Assembly (NCBI GenBank): GCA_034190875.2
Contig: CM067349.1
Coordinates: 11,440,880 to 11,504,879, forward strand
From: Urechis unicinctus
Taxonomy: Eukaryota > Annelida > Polychaeta > Xenopneusta > Urechidae
Length of the DNA stretch: 64,000 bases
Direction of reading: 5' to 3'
In this document: positions 10,984 through 40,989 of the stretch, piece by piece
Layout: every line of letters starts with the position of its first letter
Numbering within the stretch: the first letter of the stretch is position 1
Program-made: the position numbers and the translations under genes
Notes under the pieces: generated by a model
Database searches by the model: none
The model's input: the letters and a program-made list of their open reading frames with translations, nothing else
Told to the model about the DNA's origin: nothing

Positions 10984-12640
10984 AGAAACAAAAACCGGAC
11001 CATATCTATACCAAGCCAAAGTGAGAAAAAGGGACCATTTACATACCAAATCCTCTGAAAAAAGACCCATTCATATATATGAGGCCGAAAAAACATACCC
11101 CGTCACGCGGCACATATATACTAACTCTATACACTGAAGTGTCCCCCCCCCCGGCCATCCATATACCAAACTAGCCCTACAAGACGTCTGCGTAGACGTC
11201 TTACCGTTTCTCGAAACAACGCAACGCAATTATTTGTAGATCGATTCAGACAACTACCAAACACCAAACATACACAAGTGATGGAGTTATAGAATGCAAT
11301 GATGTTTTACTGACAATTTCATCCCTTTTCGGCTGGTGATTTCATCCGTGGTAATTAGTTTTAGTTCGATCAATTTGGGAAGCGGTAAAAAGTCAGAAAC
11401 ACAGCAACATGTTTGTTTACAAGTTCAAGACCACATGCATTGCGCATGCACAGAAAGACAAAGACTAATGCTAAGCCCGGGGGGGGGGGGAGTGTAAAGA
11501 TATAGTATACATGTGCCGCACGAAGGGGGTGTTTTTTTCAACATCTCGACTTTTACGACGGGTTAGACATTCGCATAATACCTTGTACGATGGAGTATAC
11601 TTTTTCTCATTTTCAACGAGTACAACGGGTACGGGTTTTTGAGGTCCCGCGGCACACCCCTATCCGAGTTAGGGTAAGTGCCCCCCACTTGGGATGCTAA
11701 GGCAATGCGGGAAATCGCGAGAATTAATAGTTTCCAAAATGACATCGTATCGCGATTTGTTCGGAAACAAACTATCGATGCCATTTATTGAAGAATAGCG
11801 TCGAGTGGTGGTAAGTTTTTTGGCGCGCATAGTCTATTTTTTGTAAAGGCTCTTGATATATGTTATTTTCTAGGTACGCATAGTAGTCCTTCAACCCAAA
11901 CGAGAACTTGCCGACTGTGTTTGACGAACTCTTCGTAACGGTATAAATTCATGTTACCGTTACACCGGAGCTAATACCAAACTAACGATTCAGACTGAAA
12001 AATTACGTTTATTAAGCTTCGCAACTCCAAAAATAATTTGCTGATACCAACGGTGCTTTGGTTTGTAACGGCAAGGCAGTTAATTAGATAGCGGCCACTA
12101 AATAAAGAAATGTTTGACTCGGGCCCACAAGCTATCAACGAGCGCCCCAGGGCGTCCGGCCGGTCCATGAGGTAGACGATATTGCAGGAAACAATGGAAG
12201 GAGAACGTTCAGTTTTGACATTTCTGTTTGCTCATCATGCCATAAAACTTGTCTTTAAAACAACGCAACCACGCAGGCTGATAGGGCTGGCTCTCATTGA
12301 CCAAGGGGACTAGAGCACAAACACCCAATATTGAGCATCATATTGGATACCCATCACAAAAATATCCATTGCTATACTCGCTGTCAAAAATACGCACATA
12401 TTAGTATACCAGGTCATTGCCAAAAAAACCGACATATTACATTTGTATACCAAAACGCCCCATTACCGACCCAAATTGTCGGCACAACCCCACTAACCTC
12501 CACATAGTGAGAACACCCCCCCCACACACACACACACCCCACCAGGCTATCAATACATTGCCCTTAGTGATTCGTTTCTGCGAGATTTACATAGAGCAAT
12601 GAGTTCTTAGGTACTATTAGACATATACTGTCAATTCACA
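10984..12640. other. Unique insertion flank with homopolymer runs and degenerate ATATACCAAA words
   Basis: No gene is recognised. The stretch has a C-run at about 11,143-11,152, a G-run at about 11,479-11,490, and a CA run near 12,522-12,537. The words CATATACCAAA, TATACCAAGCC and GTATACCAAAACG are scattered through 11.0-11.2 and 12.35-12.5 kb. These look like an old degenerate short-period array. Frames up to 73 codons on the minus strand (for example 11,563-11,784) have no recognised motif. Confidence 0.5.
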
Positions 12641-12654
12641 TGTTTGACGTACAT

Positions 12655-13108
12655 TCATTCATACATACATACATACATACATACATACATACATACATAC
12701 ATACATACATACATACATACATACATACATACATACATACATACATACATACATACATACATACATACATACATACATACATACATACATACATACATAC
12801 ATACATACATACATACATACATACATACACATACACATACATACATACATAATACATACATACATACATGCATACATACATACATACATACATACATACG
12901 TACGTACATACTACATACATACACATACATACATACATACATACATACATACATACATACATACATACACATACATACATACATACATACATACATACAT
13001 ACATACATACATACATACATACATACATACATACATACATACATACATACATACATACATACATACATACATACATACATACATACATACATACGTACAT
13101 ACGTACAT
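12655..13108. repeat. CATA tetranucleotide microsatellite
   Basis: The block is about 450 bp of (CATA)n with occasional CACA, GTAC and ATAATA interruptions. All six frames give Tyr-Ile-His-Thr or Met-Tyr-Val-Cys repeats up to 173 codons. They are by-products of a 4-base unit and are not proteins. Confidence 0.98.
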
Positions 13109-13351
13109 GATTTTTGTGGGTGCAAGTTTATGATCCGTACATGCGTACGTTTGTTGGAATGTTAATGATGCTTATTTGATTTGCCAACTGCTGGATCTGT
13201 CCTTTAAATTAACCATCGCCCAATACGACCCGATCATATTTGGTCTTCCAAAATTGTCCTCCCACCAAAAACAAAATACTTTACCCCTGGGTAAAAGTGA
13301 ATGGTAATCGGATACGCCATACAGATTAGTGTGTTGTGTTTTAATTCAAGT

Positions 13352-13457
13352 GGACGACGTTAATATGTGGCATATAATGCGGAGCACGCGGACGACGTTA
13401 ATATGTGACATATAATGCGGAGCACGCGGACGACGTTAATATGTGACATATAATGCG
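13352..13457 (+). repeat. 38-bp minisatellite, about 2.8 copies
   Basis: The unit begins GGACGACGTTAATATGTG and ends GCGGAGCACGC. Copies start at 13,352, 13,390 and 13,428 with nearly no substitutions, so the array is young compared with its surroundings. Confidence 0.9.
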
Positions 13458-13621
13458 ATGCTATCTGGACGCATTAGCGCTCTATTTCATGTACATGAAT
13501 CATGAACCCTGTGCCTGGTACCCGGCACAATATGTGCGGTACTGATTAAGTGCACACAGGTATTTTATACCAGAACAAATGTGCAGAAGTACTTACCTAT
13601 TTATGTGGGGTTCATCTGCAT

Positions 13622-13693
13622 GGGATGGGGAGGTGTGGAAGGGGGTTGGGTGGGGGGGGGGGAGGGTGGTTGCGGGTTGTGGGGGTGGGGGGT
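13622..13693 (+). other. G-rich tract with G-quadruplex potential
   Basis: Several runs of three or more G on the plus strand are separated by short loops, including a run of twelve or so G near 13,652. The 74-codon frame crossing it is glycine-rich only because of this tract. Confidence 0.6.
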
Positions 13694-13981
13694 TATCACT
13701 GTAAAAGTTACTATCATATCGTTTTGATTAACTGTGTTTTGTTAACGGTCTTAAGGGCCGATGCTGACAAATGAAAGATATTGTTAACTAGCATATTACT
13801 TTGCATGGCCTGAGCTGACCAGCCTGCCTTGTCCCTAGCATTGAAGGCATTTTTACCTTGAAGGCATATAATGCCTCAGGGAAGACTTTTTTTCATCGAA
13901 ATATTGCACATCTGTGCATACTTGCAATTGGCTAGGTGCATATTTTGGAGAAGATTGACAAGCATACTCAAAGTTCAGTTC

Positions 13982-14013
13982 GGACATCATGGAGATAACA
14001 AATCATGATGTCC
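13982..14013. repeat. Short inverted repeat (10-bp perfect arms, 12-nt loop)
   Basis: GGACATCATG at 13,982-13,991 is the exact reverse complement of CATGATGTCC at 14,004-14,013. It lies just downstream of the transposase gene's 3' end. It could be part of an element terminus, but no partner was found on the other side. Confidence 0.5.
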
Positions 14014-14152
14014 AAACTCGAGTGCCTGTTACATAACCAGTCAAAAGTAATTGCCCTTATCTGATGTTGAATGGTGGTGTAAATGGGCAGTCTGCTTGGT
14101 TTGATAAATCGAAGAAGTGGATACAAACAAATTGGTTCAATACAGGGAGATT

Positions 14153-14158
14153 TTTATT
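14153..14158 (-). promoter_or_regulatory. Likely polyadenylation signal AATAAA of the KDZ gene
   Basis: The minus strand reads GTTAATAAAAATC about 45 bases after the stop codon at 14,202. A canonical AATAAA at this distance supports 14,202-14,525 as the true 3' end of the transposase coding region. Confidence 0.5.
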
Positions 14159-14201
14159 AACATAACAGACCACAAGCTAAATATCTGCACAAATAAACTT
14201 A

Positions 14202-15167
14202 TTAAATTTCCTCGTCACTGGAAATTTCCTCATTATCTGGAAATGCCTCAATATTGACAGCAATCTCGGAAAGTCCATCCATTCCTATATCATTAACACT
14301 GAAAAGATTATGCACAAAATGCTCTAAATTTGAGCACCCTCTGTCCATGCATGTTTTGATCATTGTTTCTACAGCGTGAAAATGGTTCATTTCCTTAAGA
14401 TTTCTTGAAACCACTGACAAAGTTCCTTTATTAATGCTAATTAGGTCAGTTTGCTGTTTTATGGCATCAATGGTATTTGACAGCTGTTTCACCCTTGTCA
14501 CTGTTGCCCTGTGCAGGCATGCCATGTCTCAGTTCACCAAGTCTATTTCCTCAATACCCCTTTCATGTAGTCTGTGATTGTCAATAAGCTTGTGTTTCAT
14601 GGGAAGTGGCACATCAGAGGAAACAGAACTGAGTGGTGAAAGGTGCTGCCTATCATCTGCATTAAGCGCTGTAACATCAGAGCGTTGTGAAAGATGCTGC
14701 CACACATCTGCATCAAGCGTTGTAACATCAGAGCGTTGTAGATGGTGCGGTTCGGGGCCAGAACCATGTGTCGGGATACTATTGTAGCTGTTGATAACCT
14801 TGTTCAGTTTCTTGCTTGTGAGCAGAATTTGGATTGAAATACACTTTGCCAATGACTGGCCCCCTGTTGACACAACAATGTAATTACTCATCAGCATTTC
14901 ATGATAATCCCATTCTGACCTAGGCCGACGGACATAAAGATTTAGTTTATTGGAGAAACGACATAAAAAAGGTGACTTCAAAACTCAATTGCATACTTTG
15001 ACTTCATGGTCACAAAATAGTTGTACAGTACCGCTGCATCTATCAACTCTTCCAGTTTCCTCTGACGCTTCTGGGTGCATCTGACAACTTACGAAGTCTT
15101 ATATATGCGTGAGGTTAGGAGCCTTTTTTTTTTTTCTTCTGCCTCTCTATTTTTTTCAGGGAGGCAT
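14202..15167 (-). pseudogene. Terminal exon(s) of the KDZ transposase
   Basis: Reading down from 15,167, the frame opens with DASLKKIERQKKKKK, a basic coiled-coil-like stretch. It continues with RQRKLEELIDAAVLYNYFVT and MKSKYAIE, shifts frame near 14,980, and then runs as NLYVRRPRSEWDYHEMLMSN and LTSKKLNKVINSYN. A single in-frame TGA at 14,526-14,528 separates EEIDLVN from DMACLHRATVTRV. The last part ends in the acidic tail DNEEISSDEEI. The 12-base A-run near 15,124-15,135 is a likely slippage site. The frame phase into this exon from 15,413-15,444 fits an acceptor TAG at 15,168-15,170. The downstream half (14,202-14,525) has no known motif. Confidence 0.7.
14645..14750 (-). repeat. 54-bp coding minisatellite, two copies, in the KDZ C-terminal region
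   Basis: The minus strand encodes QRSDVTTLDADVWQHLS followed by QRSDVTALNADDRQHLS, so an 18-residue block is repeated nearly unchanged. It lies between the conserved LNKVINSYN segment and the EEIDLVN segment, in what is probably a disordered linker. Confidence 0.8.
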
Positions 15168-15412
15168 CTAGCCTGCACACAAAGTGATGAATGACAAAAT
15201 TTGGTTTCAATGACATGTAGCCAAAAAGTTCTCTCCATATCTAGTCATATCCATTGTTTAATTTGAATAAAGAAAGAAACAAAGGGCCTTGAAGATCTGC
15301 TACTGTTGAAACGATTTTCAATAACAAGTTATGTCAAGATTAAATTTTGAAAAAGTTAATGGTATAACATTGTATTCAATGAGACACAAGGGAAAAACAC
15401 TAACCACAAAAC

Positions 15413-15444
15413 CATTTGCCGGGTCAGGCATGTGTCCTTGCTTG
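15413..15444 (-). pseudogene. Small KDZ exon
   Basis: This 32-bp exon lies between the acceptor TAATACAG and the donor ATG|GTTTTG. It encodes SKQGHMPDPANG when joined to the preceding exon. The phase with 15,654-15,710 is correct (AG plus C gives Ser), and so is the phase into the terminal exon (G plus AT gives Asp). These matches are the main evidence for the exon. The donor is weak. Confidence 0.5.
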
Positions 15445-15653
15445 CTGTATTACAAAAGGTGACATCAAACTTTCAATAACCTATTGGGTTTACTTGGCAT
15501 TGGGAAATCTTATAAGCTTCTCAAAGGTCACGAAGGGCTTACCTAAAGTTTAGGAGTGACAATTCATTTTCCACAGCAAAGATATATGTTATGGTACACT
15601 GTATAACAATATCTAACCATCTTTTATAATTATGTATGTAACTATTAACTTAC

Positions 15654-15710
15654 CTGGCTAGCTGCTCTTCAGTATCCTCTGTGTTTAATGTATCATCAAT
15701 TTCACAAACA
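15654..15710 (-). pseudogene. KDZ exon, acidic segment
   Basis: The exon lies between acceptor GGCTGCAG and donor CAG|GTAAGT. It encodes VCEIDDTLNTEDTEEQLA, an acidic segment of the C-terminal half of the transposase. Both splice sites are close to consensus and the frame is open. Confidence 0.65.
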
Positions 15711-16031
15711 CTGCAGCCAGAATAAGTAGACAAAAACATTAATATCACTCCAATAACAGGATTGGTCTTCCTTCTCCTGGCAGGAGTATTACAGATACAT
15801 CACAGCACCATTTGTGTATTTGATAAAAATCCACATTATCCAAAGACCCAACACATTGTGAGAAGATAGTTTAACTCAATGAATGGTACAGGTACAACAT
15901 CAATGCATATGTGCATTCCCAAGCATCTATAGAGTACACACACACACAAAATTGCGAGGTTCCACATGTGGCAGAAATCTATGACAATTAATTAAATCAA
16001 ACTGCATATTTTTGTCAGAACAGCCTTTTAC

Positions 16032-16109
16032 CATTATGGCTCTGCTTGTAAGTCAAGACAACCTCGTTCTCTTCTGAACACCAGTCATGTACTTGACCTA
16101 TGGTTGCTC
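16032..16109 (-). pseudogene. KDZ exon
   Basis: The exon follows acceptor CAAACAG and ends at donor ATG|GTAAAAG. It encodes ATIGQVHDWCSEENEVVL then TYKQSHNGKR, with one open frame throughout. A further 31-bp candidate exon at 16,148-16,178 (VNIVKVEVI) sits just upstream, with acceptor TTGCAG and donor TG|GTAAGC. The phases of the two do not join cleanly, so one boundary is misplaced or there has been an indel. Confidence 0.5.
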
Positions 16110-16332
16110 CTGTTTGAAGCCATTTTGATAACATTGTGTGGGCTTACCATATAACTTCAACTTTCACAATATTCACAACTGCAATTGCATGATTCAATTA
16201 AATTTGTAGATAACATTGGTTAGATGAATCAATGCTTATAAACTATATTCACAGCATGTATGGCACCCCAATAACAAGGATACATTACAAGTTACTAAAC
16301 TAATAACAGCCTAGGAATACCAATGACAATAC

Positions 16333-16416
16333 CTTGTAATAAGGCAAGATACTCCTCCATTTTCTTTGATGTACTATCTTTGATAAGCAATGACAATCTG
16401 TCATTAAAGGTATGGC
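16333..16416 (-). pseudogene. KDZ exon after the catalytic core
   Basis: The acceptor TTTTGAAG is followed by a frame HTFNDRLSLLIKDSTSK then KMEEYLALLQ and the donor CAAG|GTATTG. The alpha-helical, charged character and the position after the GEG exon fit the helical region downstream of the KDZ core. Confidence 0.6.
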
Positions 16417-16502
16417 CTTCAAAACCATTTTAGTAATCAATTTATTCAAAAATAATATAATGAGTAAGAGAAAGACAATAAGTAAGGTGCAGGTAGTTGT
16501 AC

Positions 16503-16665
16503 TTGCATATTTTATAAGTAATTTTCTGTCCATAGTTCAGCAGTGATTCCACAATAGGGTCTGACCTATTATCTGGGGTAATTTCTTTTGTGATCTTGCT
16601 GAATTTGCCCAAAGAGATCCACCATCTCTAAGTTCCTTCACCCTCAAAAAGCCCAGCGCCTTGGG
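16503..16665 (-). pseudogene. KDZ exon with GEG motif, interrupted by a stop codon
   Basis: The readable frame is GAGLFEGEGT, TAG stop, RWWISLGKFSKITKEITP, then DNRSDPIVESLLNYGQ. In this family the expected residue at the stop is glutamate (GEG-x-E), so one G-to-T change in the codon explains it. The TKE and the following R-x-D also match the family pattern. A second frame through the same exon is open, but it gives no similarity. The phase with 16,829-16,904 is off by one, consistent with an indel. Confidence 0.75.
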
Positions 16666-16828
16666 CTATACTGGATTTACGATTAAAAACTATTTGATGT
16701 TTCAGCATGACCTTTGTTGGTAGCAATGGAATTATTGATAAGGATATTTTAAATATATAATATCATACATTATTAATCAAGTATATTAATCAATATAATA
16801 TTCCTGTAACTGTAATTGACATTCTTAC

Positions 16829-16904
16829 CTGACATGACATCTCGTGACCATACACATTGAATATTGGTACGGCAAATGTCACTCCAGCACTTATGCCTTT
16901 TTTT
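16829..16904 (-). pseudogene. KDZ exon with YGH..CQ motif
   Basis: The exon between ATATGCAG and CAG|GTAAGA encodes KKGISAGVTFAVPIFNVYGH then EMSCQ. In KDZ transposases a P-x-[FL]-[HN]-x-[YG]-GH..CQ segment follows the YD..C strand. It joins in phase 0 to the exon at 16,996-17,089. The histidine usually seen before the YGH triplet is Asn here. Confidence 0.8.
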
Positions 16905-16995
16905 CTGCATATGCACGCCAACAATACTGTTTAACTAAAATTGGCGACAACTTTCAGCATTAGGTTGCATAGTATAAAAAATTGTGTTTGGTTAC

Positions 16996-17089
16996 CTTGA
17001 CAACAGTGCTTAGTAAACAGCCCAAATCATACGTTAGGATGTCCACACTCTCCAAATTTTTCATCATGAAAATACTGTATGCCATGCTG
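16996..17089 (-). pseudogene. KDZ exon with YD..C motif
   Basis: The exon lies between acceptor TTCTTAG and donor AAG|GTAACC. It encodes SMAYSIFMMKNLESVDILTY then DLGCLLSTVVK. The D-x-x-x-YD-x-x-C segment is the second catalytic strand region of the KDZ core. No stop or shift is seen within it. Confidence 0.8.
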
Positions 17090-17714
17090 CTAAGAACAGA
17101 AGCAGGGTTATCAGTATGTTAAAGATGTCAAGGTGGGTAGAATCTAAAATATCAAACCAACAACAAACAAAGCCACAACAACAATACTGTTCACATGCTT
17201 CTTCATTAACTATAGCATAACAGAAAGACCATTCTCCAAAGTCATTCACAATGGTGTGATGTTTTTCCTATGATACCAAATTATATATCATAATGGGGAA
17301 ATCATCATGTATGGTCTCAAATGCCAGTTATATGTACCAGTTGAAATTCAACTGACAATTGTTAGATCTACATTTTTATAAACTTCTCCACAAGCTCAGT
17401 TATAAATCATAAAGGTCTAGTCCTGCTACATGCCACTGTATATGGTCATATAATGAAAGTTTGGCATCAAAAACCCATGTTTATGTGATTGCTGTTTTTG
17501 TTCCTGCATGAAGCAAGAAATTGACACATGACATGACTAAATCATGATGTAATAGATGGGCAAATTGTAGCTTAGTTTGATTACACCAAAATATTCACAT
17601 TATGACACATATGTCTACCTGTTGCAAATTAGTTACTTGCTTAAGGGTGTCTGGATGTGCAATTATTACATTCTACAAACCATATTAAAACTATACAAAA
17701 AGAGTTGATCTTAC

Positions 17715-17842
17715 CCCTCACCATGTTCCATGTAATAAATCTTGCAAGGGAAGTCACGGTAACAAACAGATGCAAATGCACCTGCAATGTCCAGCTTAGC
17801 CGTCTTGTTTTTGGCACGGAGAACAGACCCAGCTTGAAATTG
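17715..17842 (-). pseudogene. KDZ exon with first catalytic aspartate region
   Basis: The readable frame is FQAGSVLRAKNKTAK, then LDIAGAFASVCYRDFPCK and IYYMEHGEG, ending at donor GG|GTAAGA. The pattern K-x-x-x-[LC]-D-x-x-G-x-F-x-x-x-C-x-R-x-x-P is the hallmark of the family's first catalytic aspartate. The acceptor is probably the TAG before CAATTTC. Its phase does not match the upstream exon, suggesting a one-base indel or a different acceptor. Confidence 0.8.
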
Positions 17843-17986
17843 CTACAGTTCTACAATAGCAATATGAAGATAAGGTCATTATAAAGATGGTCAATGCAGA
17901 TCTACATAAAATATTACATCACTAAAGTAACCAATCAATTCAGCTGACTTGTCTGTACATACTATTCAATGTTTAAAAGAACAAAC

Positions 17987-18083
17987 CTCAGGATTCCATT
18001 TTTCCAACTTAAGCACGAGTGTTGTTCTGTGGAATTGGCTTCATCTGGGTCCAGGGCTCTGTCAGATATGTCATGGGCCATAC
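17987..18083 (-). pseudogene. KDZ exon upstream of the core
   Basis: The acceptor TTCTGTATAG is followed by MAHDISDRALDPDEANST then EQHSCLSWKNGIL and the donor GAG|GTTTGT. The CLSWK-type Cys is followed by the DIAG exon, as expected for the segment just before the core. The upstream extension of this frame to 18,204 is intronic. Confidence 0.55.
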
Positions 18084-19411
18084 CTATACAGAAGCAAAAT
18101 AAATTCTCAACCACTTGGTAGACATGGAATGACAATAGATTGGTATCAGATTCATACCAAAGCATGCCAATCAGTTTTTTGCAGGAACTATTTGTTACAC
18201 ACAATTTTTAGGTAAGTGTCATAGGCCGTTGCCAGACCTACTGCACACCATGGAAGGGTGGCCAATTGCAAACCTGTCTCATTGTGACAGGGCCGTTCTG
18301 GACTGTTTGGTAGTCTCATATAAATGACCATTGGCATCAAATGCAATGAAACATTTTGTTCCTCTAATATATTACAAATGAAGAATAGTGTTTTCGCTCA
18401 ATACCATTTTGTTATCCTTGGGGATTTTATAGTAATAATTATAGTTCGAGGCCATGAAAGTTGTGTCACGATTTATGTACCTAAAAAAGAATTCTCACAC
18501 TGCTTTATTCTTTATTCAATTGCCATCTTAATAACACCAATTAGTGGAAGAGTGAAAGTGTTAAGCAGATCCAAGTGATAATTGATCAAAACTGGATAAC
18601 CCTCTGAAACATGCATCTTTTCAATTATCACTAGCATCTATATCACGGAGACTCTACTTAACACATTGGTATGATAATCTCTAATGGTACGGTCAATTTA
18701 AAGACAGTACGTACCCAGCTTACTTTCCCTGTGAAATCTTTTAACGCCAAAGCTACGGCTCCATGATAATGGTCCTAGTCTTAGGGGCTTAGGGCGATCT
18801 CATATTGCGACTATGTCAAAGGGAAACAAGACTGGGTATTTGTGTATTAGGAAGTTTGGCAATATGGAATTAAACTGATACATAAGTCAATTGAACTGTT
18901 GTAGTCAATTGCCTGATTCACAGATATGTGGTGTGAGTGAAACTGTTAACATGTCATCCCAATGAACCTTTCAACCCTGAAGTGATTATTGGAACATCCC
19001 AATGAACTAGGTCTGTTGGTGACCTGCATCGTTTGGAAACTCGTATCTTCTCTCCATCCCGTATCGCTTGAGAAATACGGCAGACTCAAATTGTCATGAA
19101 ACTCAAAATGCGACAAAGCGGGTATTATTCGAGGAGATATTCTCACTTGGGTAAACCTTAGGAACTTATCTGGGGAATAGGCAAGGCACTTGCCCCTGGT
19201 GTTTTGATTATCTGATACCACCTACAGGCCACAGCGCGAATGTGAGAGATGGAAAGTAGTAAACAGGGTAAATAGCGCGGACGCTGTCAGCTGGTCAGAA
19301 GCGAAGCGTCTTTGCCTATCTGGGGAATAGAACGATTATCTTTGTACATGACACAGTCCGTTGAAAACGATTCTCTGAGGAAAACAAAAATATAAGTTTG
19401 AATTTCTATAC
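18084..19411 (-). other. Presumed 5' intronic region of the KDZ gene with possible N-terminal exon
   Basis: No confident exon is seen here. A minus-strand frame at 18,946-19,221 (91 codons, NTRGKCLAYSPDKFLRFTQV) continues upstream past one stop to RQRRFASDQLTASALF near 19,315. It could be an N-terminal KDZ exon. The phrase TATCTGGGGAATAG occurs twice (about 19,168 and 19,317), and CATCCCAATGAAC occurs twice (about 18,955 and 18,996), so local duplications are present. Confidence 0.35.
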
Positions 19412-19625
19412 CGTCAATGGGTCCTGGGGCCGTGTGACACTTGTCACTGCTGACACTTGACTTTTCATTATCATGATCGTGGCTGGGTCTGGCCCTGGAG
19501 CTCCCATGTCGCGGTTAAGCACTGGTGTTTCAACTGGATACCACACATCTTCCGCTCTCATAAATGTACACACCGTCTGGCTCGGGGTTAAGGTTGACTT
19601 GCCGCTTACGTCTCTTAGATGCCAT
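19412..19625 (-). pseudogene. Likely first coding exon of the KDZ transposase
   Basis: The ATG at 19,625 opens MASKRRKRQVNLNPEPDGVY, a basic then acidic N-terminus. The same frame continues past a TGA and a TAA (near 19,530 and 19,515) into RHGSSRARPSHDHDNEKS and SSDKCHTAPGPIDG, then a possible donor G|GTATAG at 19,411. The absence of any frame change over 214 bp, apart from the two stops, argues for former coding use. Alternative initiators upstream were not seen. Confidence 0.5.
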
Positions 19626-20995
19626 GATCTAATACCTGAATTAAATAGGGTAATCCGAGCCGAAAAGGCCTAAGAAAAGTTGTTGTGAAAATGTTCCTTT
19701 CATAGCGCATGCGTAGCGCGGTACAATTGGGAGCATGCATTAATTTTTTTATTTTTTGGGTCATCGAAGTTATTGCGCCCATAAGCAAATAAAAGGGTGA
19801 CAATTTTGTTCGTGGTTTATTGAATAATAGTGCTTCTGAGGGTTCTATGGGTGGTGACCTCGTTTAGGTTCTTAGGAAGTGTTAACATTTTCCAAGGATC
19901 ACCGACGGATGTCATCAGAAGACAACATGTCAAGAGCCGAGTCTTCAATCTTCGTAAAATTTCGAAATCATGAGAAATGTAAAATCAGAAATTACTGATA
20001 GTTTTACTTGCAAGATGTAAAAAAACCCATAGATTGGCTAGATTGGCGCTCGCATTGTCCTTGTGGATATTTGGCACGGCTGTAATCTTTTATCATGTTC
20101 GTGCATCCCCTCAATGTCTCAGTGAGCATCCAGTTTTGTTTCACATATTTCAAGACAAGATGGCATTTATTTCATACATATATGAACCTCTTCTGTCTCT
20201 TTTGAAACGTAGTTAAATATTTGTTGAAGCGTATAGTACCACTCGTGCTCTATGGGATTCGATATATCTTGATTAATCAGTCGATCATGCCTATTAAAAG
20301 GAGATTTTGAATAAATAATAGGATTTGTTAATTTCAATATTCACAGATTAACTCATCCGTTATACTGTCTGCCAATCGACTCTCATACGGGGTTATCGTT
20401 TCACATATCATTCCCAATGAGAGTAGATTAACTTCTTGAATAATGTTCTATATCCTTATTTTGTTTCATATCTTAAGCATTTTGTTATCCGCATATATGC
20501 GGGAAATAGAAATCGCATTGATGTACATGGTTTTACGCCTACTTTTATAAGAATTTTGTATACATGATGAAAATTACTGGATTGTTTGTCCACACAAGAG
20601 AGGTTTATCGTTTCCGTTCATGTCATCAGAAAAGTGATTCCTTGTGCGAGACCGCTGTTTTTTAGTTGACGTTTTTATACTTAACGATGACATCAATTAT
20701 TTCGTAAAACAAATGGACAATAATTAAATTGACATCTGGTTCGCCCGGGCCATTTACTCACTGAATCTGTCATCGTATCAATAGGCTGACGGGGGTGTCT
20801 TCCAGTAGCCAGAGGGCGCTACTGTCATCCTATGGCATGCGCATGACCGGCGACTCCCAGTATCCTATAGTATACGCTGACCCCAGTTGTATCGGGTGGC
20901 AAAGGAATAGTGCAAATAGACAAAATCCATTTTATTCGCTTATGTGGACTAACTATTCTGTTGCCAACCTCTACCACTTAAAATAACCAAGGACT
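19626..20995. other. Unique flank of the KDZ region, no gene recognised
   Basis: No repeat-family landmark and no coding motif were recognised in this stretch. Frames of 60-63 codons (20,034-20,216 and 20,795-20,986 on the plus strand) are unremarkable. The large repeat resumes at about 20,996 with GGACTTTAGTCACGGTACATCG. The right boundary of whatever interrupted the repeat therefore lies here, but no terminal repeat was found. Confidence 0.5.
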
Positions 20996-32884: not shown

Positions 32885-34975
32885 TGACAAGCGCCAGCTA
32901 GTATTTTTCTGTACAAGGTCTGACATTATACCACTAGAATTGAAGCATTATATGATACGAATAACGACTGGCTTTAAATTATTCACTGCCTCTGTTTACC
33001 GAATATCTATCATAATATTAAGCCTAGAATAGCCCATATGCATAGGACTTCATAGGGCTCACTCGTCTACCACAAGTTTAATCAGGGCTTGCGCGCTAGG
33101 GTAGGCGCGGTCCATACTTTCGCGATCACCTGTTTATTTTCTTTATCCCCTTTTTCATCCGTCATAGCAATGTAATATACACGATATGGCCGCAACGCTT
33201 CAGATGAAACACGTCATATATCTGTCGGCTGCCAGAATACATTGTCTGACTTCAACATTGACATCCGGCACTAGTCTTATATCAATGAGTAACCTTAACT
33301 CAAATTCGTATGCACAGCTCGTATATATTGAATCTTTTTCTCAACTTAACGTTGAATAAACAAGACAACGTGGTCGCTTCATAGAAGACGAATCGGATGA
33401 GATTGCATAGACAATGTGGTCGCCTCATAGAAGACGCATCGAATGAGGTTGCATAACAATATGGTCTGTGTTCACTCTGTTACCAAGTTGTGTTATCCCT
33501 TTAGGTCAACTGCTTAGGTGGCCATAGCCGGGTTAATGTGCATTGCAGTCTGTTCTGAAAATGTACAATTAATCCACACCAGATTGACAGTATATACAAT
33601 TCTGACAATTAATCCATACATGAAGACATTCACCGCATCGTTTTATCTCCTACAAGCTGCTGCGACTGACGGAGAACCAAGCGAGTTGCAATTAGGAGGC
33701 AAAACATCATAACTGAATGACGTATGAATTAGCCTTTTAGAGTGATGGCTCGCTATGACAGCCAGTTTTACATTAACTACCCTAATAGAAGAATCGCTAC
33801 AGCGTTATTCAATCTCAAATATATGTACCGTATAAATAAACAGGGAAACTTGCTAATCAAAGCATTTGACAAAGCCCCTCTGTCTTTATTCGTTTAGAGT
33901 GAGACACAAAACATGCCATATATTACCAGTTGTTAATGTGGCTTTATAATTTAGACCTTTTTAGTCACTAATGACATTGGTATCTTCAAACTTGTACCGA
34001 CACTATGAAAGATACGGTAAATTAATTATCGTCAGCTTTTATCACCAGTTTTTAGAACAGCATTTTCTATTAGCTGACCATTCATGTTAGATTCGTTATT
34101 CCCCTCTCATGTCAACTACTTCTTAAACGGAGTCGGATCTGTGTCACGACTGATGTTATGGATACCATAATTAGGTTAGAAGTTAGGCTTTCCCGAATGA
34201 ATTATTCACACACTTAAAAAGATAAACAAATACACCACATATTATGAGTTTCAGCTGGCCTGATATGCAGTCGACAGCCTAGAGGCCTCTACTAGCTATA
34301 TCGCCTGAAAAAAGGTCTGTCAAGTGCTTCAGAAGGCATGGGCACGTTATTAACATGTGAAGTCGAGGTCAATTACTGATTAGATAGGGTTATAGTAAGT
34401 AATACGAATCATTGATACTCTGACAGGACCTGGTGCAATCAAGAGAGCCATTTTAAGGTTAATAGAATTGTGAGGATTATTATTTTCAAATATTCATTTC
34501 TGGTCATCTTAATACTAGATGTAACAAATGAGGCTTTTGTTTTAGAGTGGTTGGACATGAGAGATCATCGATGCTTAAACTCTAATGTTGCTTGAGTTGA
34601 GACCAATGTAGGTCCTTGTAAGTCATATTCTACCATACCTATAATAGTATATCTACTCCCACAATGTGCGGCTAACATGAGCATGGAATTTCACTGCACT
34701 GCCCACATCCGCTATGTTACCGTGTGTGTAATGGGAAAGATACTTGGAGTCATTGACGCTTGATTAGACCAATATATGTTGATAAATCGCTTTCATCGGC
34801 TGTCGTGATCCAGGAATTTCCGAGGTGTATCATGCGAAGCCGCTTTGCTGCTGAGGCGTGAGTTAGCAGCTTATGTGCAGACTGCGATTAGGTTGCTAAT
34901 AACGTCAGCAATGACCTCCCAATATTTACACACCAATAATCCCGCTATCATGTAACAATGGGTTGCATCTGTAGC
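32885..34975 (+). repeat. Left arm of a large imperfect palindrome
   Basis: Starting at GATGACAAGCGCCAGCTAG, this arm matches the reverse complement of 37,727-40,963 almost throughout. In sampled stretches I count about ten differences in 245 bp, that is about 96 percent identity. The arm ends near GGGTTGCATCTGTAGCCAGG. It includes family blocks (the TGACATTGGTATC landmark near 33,971), so it is part of the large repeat family that was recently copied in inverted orientation. The spacer between arms is about 2.75 kb. Confidence 0.9.
33365..33458 (+). repeat. 46-bp tandem pair inside the palindrome arm
   Basis: ACAACGTGGTCGCTTCATAG at 33,365 and ACAATGTGGTCGCCTCATAG at 33,411 begin two copies of a 46-bp unit, with a third start ACAATATGGTC near 33,456. 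The mirrored pair lies at about 40,393-40,485. Confidence 0.85.
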
Positions 34976-40248: not shown

Positions 40249-40989
40249 GTATATACTGTCAATCTGGTGTGGATTAATTGTACATTTTCAGAACAGACTG
40301 CAATGCACATTAACCCGGCTATGGCCACCTAAGCAGTTCACCTAAAGGGATAACACAACTTGGTAACAGAGTGAACACAGACCATATTGTTATGCAACCT
40401 CATTCGATGCGTCTTCTATGAGGCGACCACATTGTCTATGCAATCTCATCCGATTCGTCTTCTATGAGGCGACCACGTTGTCTTGTTTATTCAACGTTAA
40501 GTTGAGCAATGATTCAATATATACGAGCTGTGCATACGAATTTGAGTTTAATTTACTTTTTGGTATAAGGCTAGTGCTGGATGCCAATGTTGAAGTCAGA
40601 CAATGTATTCTGGCAGCCGACAGATGTATGACGTGTCCTATCTGAAGCGTTGCGGCCATATCGTGTATATTACATTGCCATGACGGATGAAAAAGGGGAT
40701 AAAGAAAATAAACAGGTGATCGCGAAAATATGGACCGCGCCTACCCTAGCGCGCAAGCCCTGATTAAACTTGTGGTAGACGAGTGAGCCCTATGAAGTCC
40801 TATGCATATGGGCTATTCTAGGCTTAATATCATGATAGATATTCGGTAAACAGAGGCAGTGAATAATTTAAAGCCAGTCGTTATACGTATCATATAATGC
40901 TTCAATTCTAGTGATATAATGTCAGACCTTGTACAGAAAAATACTAGCTGTCGCTTGTCATGTCTGGCACAATCAGAAGTGCTATTGCA

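Follow-up and report, generated by a model that had tools for sequence, protein, structure and literature searches.

Introduction

The closest described relatives of the element reported here belong to the KDZ superfamily of transposons (Kyakuja, Dileera and Zisupton). The Laccaria families Kyakuja-1_LB and Kyakuja-2_LB have 7-bp target-site duplications, CA..TG ends, no inverted repeats, and TET/JBP genes (Kojima 2025, PMC12730594), and target duplications of 8 bp are given for Zisupton and a Dileera (Zisupton-1_PGr) (PMC12730594). The Cryptococcus elements KDZ1-KDZ3, which have been shown to be mobile, are ~9-11 kb long, with inverted repeats of 241, 139, and 169 bp, duplications of 8 bp (KDZ1) or 4-8 bp (KDZ2 and KDZ3), and a CxC1 domain (PMC12810828). 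In Pristionchus pacificus, the Zisupton-like elements have 18 and 31 exons, a length of 8-9 kb and inverted repeats, with target duplications undetected (PMC9297572), and KDZ domains are reported to be enriched in an oyster genome (PMC10546077). The element described here lies on the minus strand of a stretch of 64,000 nucleotides (contig CM067349.1, positions 11,440,880 to 11,504,879; hereafter the window, in the numbering of which all window positions are given). It is a copy, now dead, of a cut-and-paste transposon of the KDZ superfamily, one of dozens in the genome, and its most informative feature is an older loss common to the whole sampled family (the window family) rather than the decay of the window copy itself.

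With Kyakuja, the window family shares a KDZ transposase, 7-bp target duplications and 5'-CA..TG-3' termini, but it has inverted repeats of 132 bp where the two Laccaria families have none. Moreover, the Laccaria elements carry TET/JBP genes, whereas four open frames tested in the 3' part of a window-family copy on C3 gave no match to any Pfam family. The combination of a KDZ transposase with inverted repeats is also a likeness to Zisupton, from which the family differs, as it does from Dileera, by duplications of 7 bp instead of 8 bp. The Cryptococcus elements resemble it in the KDZ core, in their long inverted repeats, and in length; their CxC zinc domain is a CxC1, that of the present element a putative CxC2, and the duplication lengths differ. 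The likeness to Pristionchus lies in intron-rich animal KDZ genes with inverted repeats; target duplications, undetected there, were found in the window family. Judged by these features, the family fits KDZ and, in duplication length and terminal bases, Kyakuja, from which its inverted repeats set it apart.

No paper recognisable by its title or the start of its abstract as describing the window family was found, in a search that had most subscription journals and Repbase outside its range. In the literature compared, target duplications are undescribed for animal KDZ elements. The present account describes how a KDZ family is bounded, which target duplications flank it and in what order its domains lie, in a genome that is large and probably that of an animal.

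KDZ identity and gene structure

The original prediction, made from the letters of the window, described a decayed and intron-rich KDZ transposase gene, and its four motif blocks were confirmed at the places, on the strand, and in the order that it gave. These blocks are the minus-strand exons with DIAGAFASVCYRDFPC (17714..17842), with VDILTYDLGC (16996..17085), with VPIFNVYGHEMSCQ followed by gtaaga (16829..16897), and with GEGT-stop-RWW (16502..16669), the last of which has a nonsense codon at 16628-16630. The joined exon peptides of 16502-18084 (minus strand), which carried X at stops and joins, matched the Pfam KDZ family PF18758 with 53.8 bits (E 2.8e-14, profile positions 56-209 of 217), which is significant against the curated cut-off of 26.6 bits; a longer join of 504 residues scored 50.3 bits. 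One peptide of the query, HSCLSW, was apparently read out of frame from the cysteine-exon stub discussed below. Given that the frames of the window join were picked by a reader, an independent check was made in a relative, L072 (C10:74.21 Mb), which is 84-88% identical to the C3 copy in long matching blocks. L072 has the corresponding exons in the same order and scores 112.7 bits over profile positions 2-210 of 217. The domain that defines the superfamily lies above the cut-off in both copies, and the intron-rich structure is upheld. The exon order is also the same in the paralogues that were aligned; on both points that could have refuted the prediction, the profile match and the exon order, the outcome was in its favour. 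The motifs DGN, YDLGC, and GEGTER, which we take to hold the three acidic catalytic residues of KDZ, occur in relatives.

The splice-like borders attributed to the gene depend on how strictly a border is defined. When any phase-consistent GT-AG is accepted, 9 of the 15 junctions in L072 have one, which is no better than chance (control mean 6.4, with 46 of 300 controls as high). When a consensus donor and a pyrimidine-rich acceptor are demanded, 5 of the 15 junctions remain; the controls average 0.43, and none of the 300 reaches this number.

The remaining exons, all on the minus strand, surround the KDZ blocks. The N-terminal exon MASKRRKRQVNLNPEPDG... (19406..19625) has its frame broken after GRC, where paralogues and L072 continue GRCVWYPV, and its 3' limit is uncertain. 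Downstream of the KDZ blocks are the exons GFEGHTFNDRLSLLIKDSTSKKMEEYLALLQ (16334..16426, frame broken in several paralogues), GATIGQVHDWCSEENEVVLTYKQSHNG (16030..16110), VCEIDDTLNTEDTEEQLAR (15653..15709), LDASLKKIERQKKKKK (15118..15171, with an A-run that differs in length between copies), and TQKRQRKLEELIDAAVLYNYFVTMKSK (14996..15076). The last exon (14202..14876) runs from VVSTGGQSL to the acidic end DNEEISSDEEI and contains a TGA at 14529-14531. Of the 24 loci scored, 19 have the acidic tail in their DNA; the other five, in which it is shortened, all belong to one group of copies, subfamily A. This exon also holds the repeat that had been noticed as one of 18 residues; the repeat is there (14636..14739), but its unit is 51 bp, that is, 17 residues. 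Two units are found in 23 of 25 window-family rows and one unit in L020, L024, and L072. The exons do fall in the predicted interval 14202..19625, but the element is larger, reaching from 20898 to about 10985.

Defects of the copy and of the family

Nonsense codons and phase breaks were proposed as the cause of death of the element, and this is supported, but not all of them are decay of the window copy. Those found in the window copy only are the GRC frame break, a one-base loss, relative to paralogues, close to the beginning of the DIAGAF exon at 17714..17842, and the break points of a ~1.1 kb deletion. This deletion, with its junction at 17961..17962, had been missed by the original prediction. 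The block concerned, of 897-1099 bp, is present in 17 of 17 loci that were cut out (16 distinct copies) and codes for the last part of a putative CxC2 domain, for QCPVCP, and for the DGN motif with which KDZ starts; L020 and L031 are also devoid of it, by way of larger deletions with different break points. The stop in GEGT-stop-RWW occurs in two of 25 rows, the window copy and L020.

The stop in the last exon, a TGA before DMACLH, has a different distribution. It was found in every one of the 25 window-family loci scored, out of 30 tried, and is therefore not decay of the window copy; L072 has GGA at this site. Similarly, 30 loci were tried for ~350 bp with the cysteine-cluster exon, and all 24 window-family rows that could be scored, from 21 distinct copies, are without them. 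Other exons have frame breaks that are family-wide or subfamily-wide. Because the TGA and the loss of the cysteine exon are seen in every window-family locus scored, the window-family lineage was probably defective before the window copy inserted. A block of ~435 bp at 19997..20430 of the window copy is not an insertion there. Four subfamily A loci (L035, L036, L037, and L038) are without it and join 20431 to 19996, and it is present in L071 at 87% over its full length, and partly in L072; its presence in L071 means that it is ancestral.

The cysteine-cluster exon

Where the window-family rows have 23-51 bp, L071 and L072 have 395-397 bp. In L071, this stretch contains an exon whose cysteine cluster reads FVCCLCTENQTDIVRC..CGPQAYFCQECAISYH, and in L072 the exon is interrupted by a stop. 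Comparison with these two loci shows that the window copy has a stub of the exon (17969..18040, minus strand, LKLEKWNPE), and that the cysteine cluster itself, seen in L071 as ...YHRITLMHKLEKWNPE, is absent. Pfam CxC2 was matched with 27.0 bits, at its cut-off of 27, in the equivalent of the lost ~1.1 kb block in the C3 copy, with 26.2 bits in L010 and with 19.2 bits in L071, in each case reaching only the second half of the profile. The L072 join gave no CxC2 match, and the L071 cysteine exon alone no Pfam match. Judging from its position before the scored half and from its cysteines, the cysteine exon may be the front half of CxC2.

A search of the assembly (1.19 Gb in 926 contigs) with the cysteine exon gave 26 matches, all 71 candidates being scored. 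Identity was 93-100% in only five places (L071, L072, and copies at C5:36.58, C3:35.34, and C10:24.78 Mb), 83% in one and 59% in another, and the rest were distant families or short fragments. The two exon-bearing places that were read have the same ends. For comparison, 39 places, which were not each checked for the cysteine exon, have a 5' end 92-98% identical to that of the window copy, so that the exon-bearing form is rare and the exon-less form of the window family would seem to be much the more abundant. The coexistence of few exon-complete copies and more numerous exon-less ones offers a natural experiment on two questions, whether the element depends on a CxC cluster in cis and whether KDZ transposase is active in trans.

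Ends, target-site duplications and copies

When window positions 14100-19700 were compared with the assembly at the DNA level, 53 matches came up (the best 39 of 2438 candidates scored), and the 5' end region gave 42 (the best 40 of 217 candidates scored). The latter comprise the window itself, two short pieces, and the 39 other places just mentioned, 29 of which start no more than three bases from window position 20898. The search for shared ends that had been advised fixed the 5' end at 20898, and no 3' end is left in the window copy. The whole remnant spans 10985..20898 on the minus strand, its 5' limit being the border of homology with paralogues and its lower limit the end of the last homologous stretch. 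It starts with a 132-bp terminal inverted repeat (20767..20898, starting CACCCGATACAACTGGGGTC), of which inverted matches were found at the far ends of a C12 copy (132 bp, 96%) and of the C3 copy (129 bp, 96%), the latter being truncated at its own 5' end. L067, which is the 3' end of the L020 copy, matches the repeat over 132 bp at 99%. A 10-base search of the window copy by itself, one end against the other, revealed no inverted repeats, because its 3' end has been lost. Ahead of the far-end inverted repeat of the C3 copy stands a tandem array with a unit of 220 bp, of which 1926 bp (8.7 units) lie within the last 3-kb stretch and the start lies in the preceding stretch; the units contain 65 bp that are ~80% similar to the inner part of the inverted repeat.

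End pairs were taken from ten copies, of which C6:59.88 and C15:42.37 were dropped since their high end was unrecognisable. An exact 7-bp duplication lies outside CACCC...GGGTG in five of the eight readable pairs, namely C5 (aaatatc), C2:53 (ctataga), C13:74 (catacat), C13:50 (cctgaag), and C12 (aacatgc). These five are full paralogues with 132-bp inverted repeats and 5'-CACCC...GGGTG-3' ends, and their coordinates give lengths of about 14.1, 20.0, 19.7, 9.3, and 15.1 kb. The search for intact paralogues has brought up dozens of copies, with full-length ones that keep both ends.

The window copy is bordered on its 5' side by CCTTTGC (20899..20905, minus strand), the same 7 bp that lie past the 3' end of the L020 copy in L067. 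Given that the two copies share this target flank, the GEGT stop, and 167 bp of identical outer flank, they probably derive from one insertion that was later duplicated. Their interiors are 3-15% different in aligned pieces (6-7% in the two longest), a divergence that is unexplained by a duplicated insertion alone. L020 and L067 span C8:11.366-11.379 Mb. On C9, three repeat ends that share one orientation occur at 43.1025, 43.1065, and 43.1105 Mb, ~4 kb from one another; the outer flank is identical in the two that were read, and these are probably tandem copies of a short derivative.

Divergence and probable recent spread

Seven window-family representatives have a divergence of.050 in exons and.065 in introns, the latter raised by pairs with L029. 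By codon position, the divergence is.057,.047, and.047, with no third-position excess in the parsimony-informative columns (p 0.28), nor in the comparison with L071 and L072. The sampled lineages show no coding constraint, in a test of limited power.

The copies of subfamily A (on C3, C7, C12, and C14, and two on C10) are 99.3-99.9% identical to the C3 copy, and the other loci 94.7-96.1%, except L029 (91.0%) and L031 (87.3%), gaps being excluded throughout. The C12 copy of subfamily A is the one with the exact 7-bp duplication given above. Subfamily A has probably spread recently, and near-identical copies of a broken family at separate sites point to a transposase acting in trans.

Origin of the window copy

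It is likely that the window copy is a dead member of a defective, derived KDZ transposon family that was spread in trans. The parent element would have encoded a multi-exon transposase with a basic N-terminus, a CxC2-like cysteine cluster, and an RNase-H-like KDZ core. This transposase would bind the 132-bp inverted repeats and cut at the CACCC/GGGTG ends, and insertion would proceed by the 7-bp staggered cut that the target duplications reflect. A derivative without the cysteine-cluster exon and with the last-exon stop would have retained intact ends, and its copies, the window copy among them, could then have multiplied with transposase supplied from elsewhere. Later events in the window copy, presumably in this order, would be the nonsense codon within GEGTER, the ~1.1 kb deletion that took away the first strand of KDZ, and the loss of the 3' end close to another inserted repeat. 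A fuller version of this account can be put forward tentatively, as possible but short of an even chance. In it, a KDZ lineage with Kyakuja-type ends (7-bp duplications, CA..TG) has long inverted repeats, the 220-bp tandem array of repeat-related units next to the 3' end may serve as extra transposase binding sites, and the zinc-less derivative took over the family and was mobilised in trans until recently.

Several observations weigh against spread in trans from a functional parent. No working source was found in the two of the five exon-bearing places that were read; L071 and L072 have two nonsense codons each in the exons read, and L073, the more distant place at 83%, is partly deleted. The join of the window-family locus L010, in which one exon is shortened, scores 19.5 bits against KDZ, below the cut-off of 26.6. 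With regard to the target sites, the duplication of C13:74 sits in a CATA microsatellite and is a weak case, C4:43.3 has a 7-bp duplication only beyond four extra bases, C4:20.26, a 2.6-kb deletion derivative, has no 7-bp duplication, and that of C2:49.05, a 232-bp form, is ambiguous. Fixed differences between parent and derivative number 15, 9, and 12 of 258, 263, and 266 sites at the three codon positions, again with no third-position excess, so that the test demonstrates no ancestral constraint either. No coding constraint is seen between L071 and L072, which have only 13 exon differences, and at 5% divergence the codon test has low power.

The defects also bear on the alternatives. The original prediction saw in the locus a former autonomous element, in which case the copy would have inserted intact and decayed later, each paralogue decaying independently. 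The GRC break, the one-base loss at DIAGAF, and the deletion break points are private to the window copy, and the stop in GEGT-stop-RWW is confined to it and L020, all of which agrees with such a history. The same history is contradicted by the last-exon TGA, which all 25 loci scored have, and by the lack of the cysteine exon in 24 of 24, with the other state in L072, unless both shared changes were harmless to the protein, and we consider it unlikely. Decay solely after insertion was rejected as a full account on the grounds of these family-shared defects. A second alternative is that the exon-less form is a functional shorter transposase, its TGA being read through or marking the true C-terminus, and that the family was autonomous without the cluster. 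The greater abundance of the exon-less form fits this, but the missing coding constraint between window-family lineages, the frame breaks that other exons have throughout the family or a subfamily, and the GGA in place of TGA in L072 make it quite improbable.

Domestication of a KDZ transposase as a host gene, now present as a multicopy pseudogene family, would suit the intron-rich structure. Against it stand the dispersal of the family in dozens of copies that have inverted repeats and target duplications, for which it was rejected, the C12 and C5 copies in which gene and ends moved together with target duplications, and again the absence of constraint, which leave it hardly credible. Spread of a defective family in trans remains the reading that we prefer.

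Other repeats in the window and other KDZ families

On its 3' side, the window copy keeps homology with paralogues to 11974, is then interrupted by a separate and very abundant repeat (11078..11973; 4723 first-look candidates in the assembly, 40 scored), resumes at 11077-10985 as the last homologous stretch, and is lost thereafter. This repeat is also found inside L071 (1519-2296), elsewhere in the element, at 92% over 811 bp. A TACA microsatellite at 12650..13108 lies within the element and is also present in paralogues. Elsewhere in the window, two short arrays with a 46-bp period (33363-33466 and 40380-40483) lie 7 kb apart, and their units look mutually reverse-complementary. Rfam gave no match anywhere in the window.

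Other KDZ genes were met in the same assembly. At C1:1.077-1.081 Mb (L006-L008), KDZ exon matches occur three times at a spacing of 1088 bp, in units about 98-99% identical, which form a tandem array made from part of another KDZ gene. A second KDZ family on C16 and C17 (L001-L004) has four copies that are 98.5-99.5% identical over the main shared alignments; in L004, a peptide that follows on the same strand has a weak PIF1-like helicase match of 18.0 bits, below the cut-off of 25.9. A further KDZ family, at C8:18.40, C11:41.12, C13:38.12, C14:5.29, and C14:19.88 Mb and at other places, has open exons of 136-167 amino acids that are ~31% identical to the cysteine-cluster exon, and is a possible live KDZ source in the genome.

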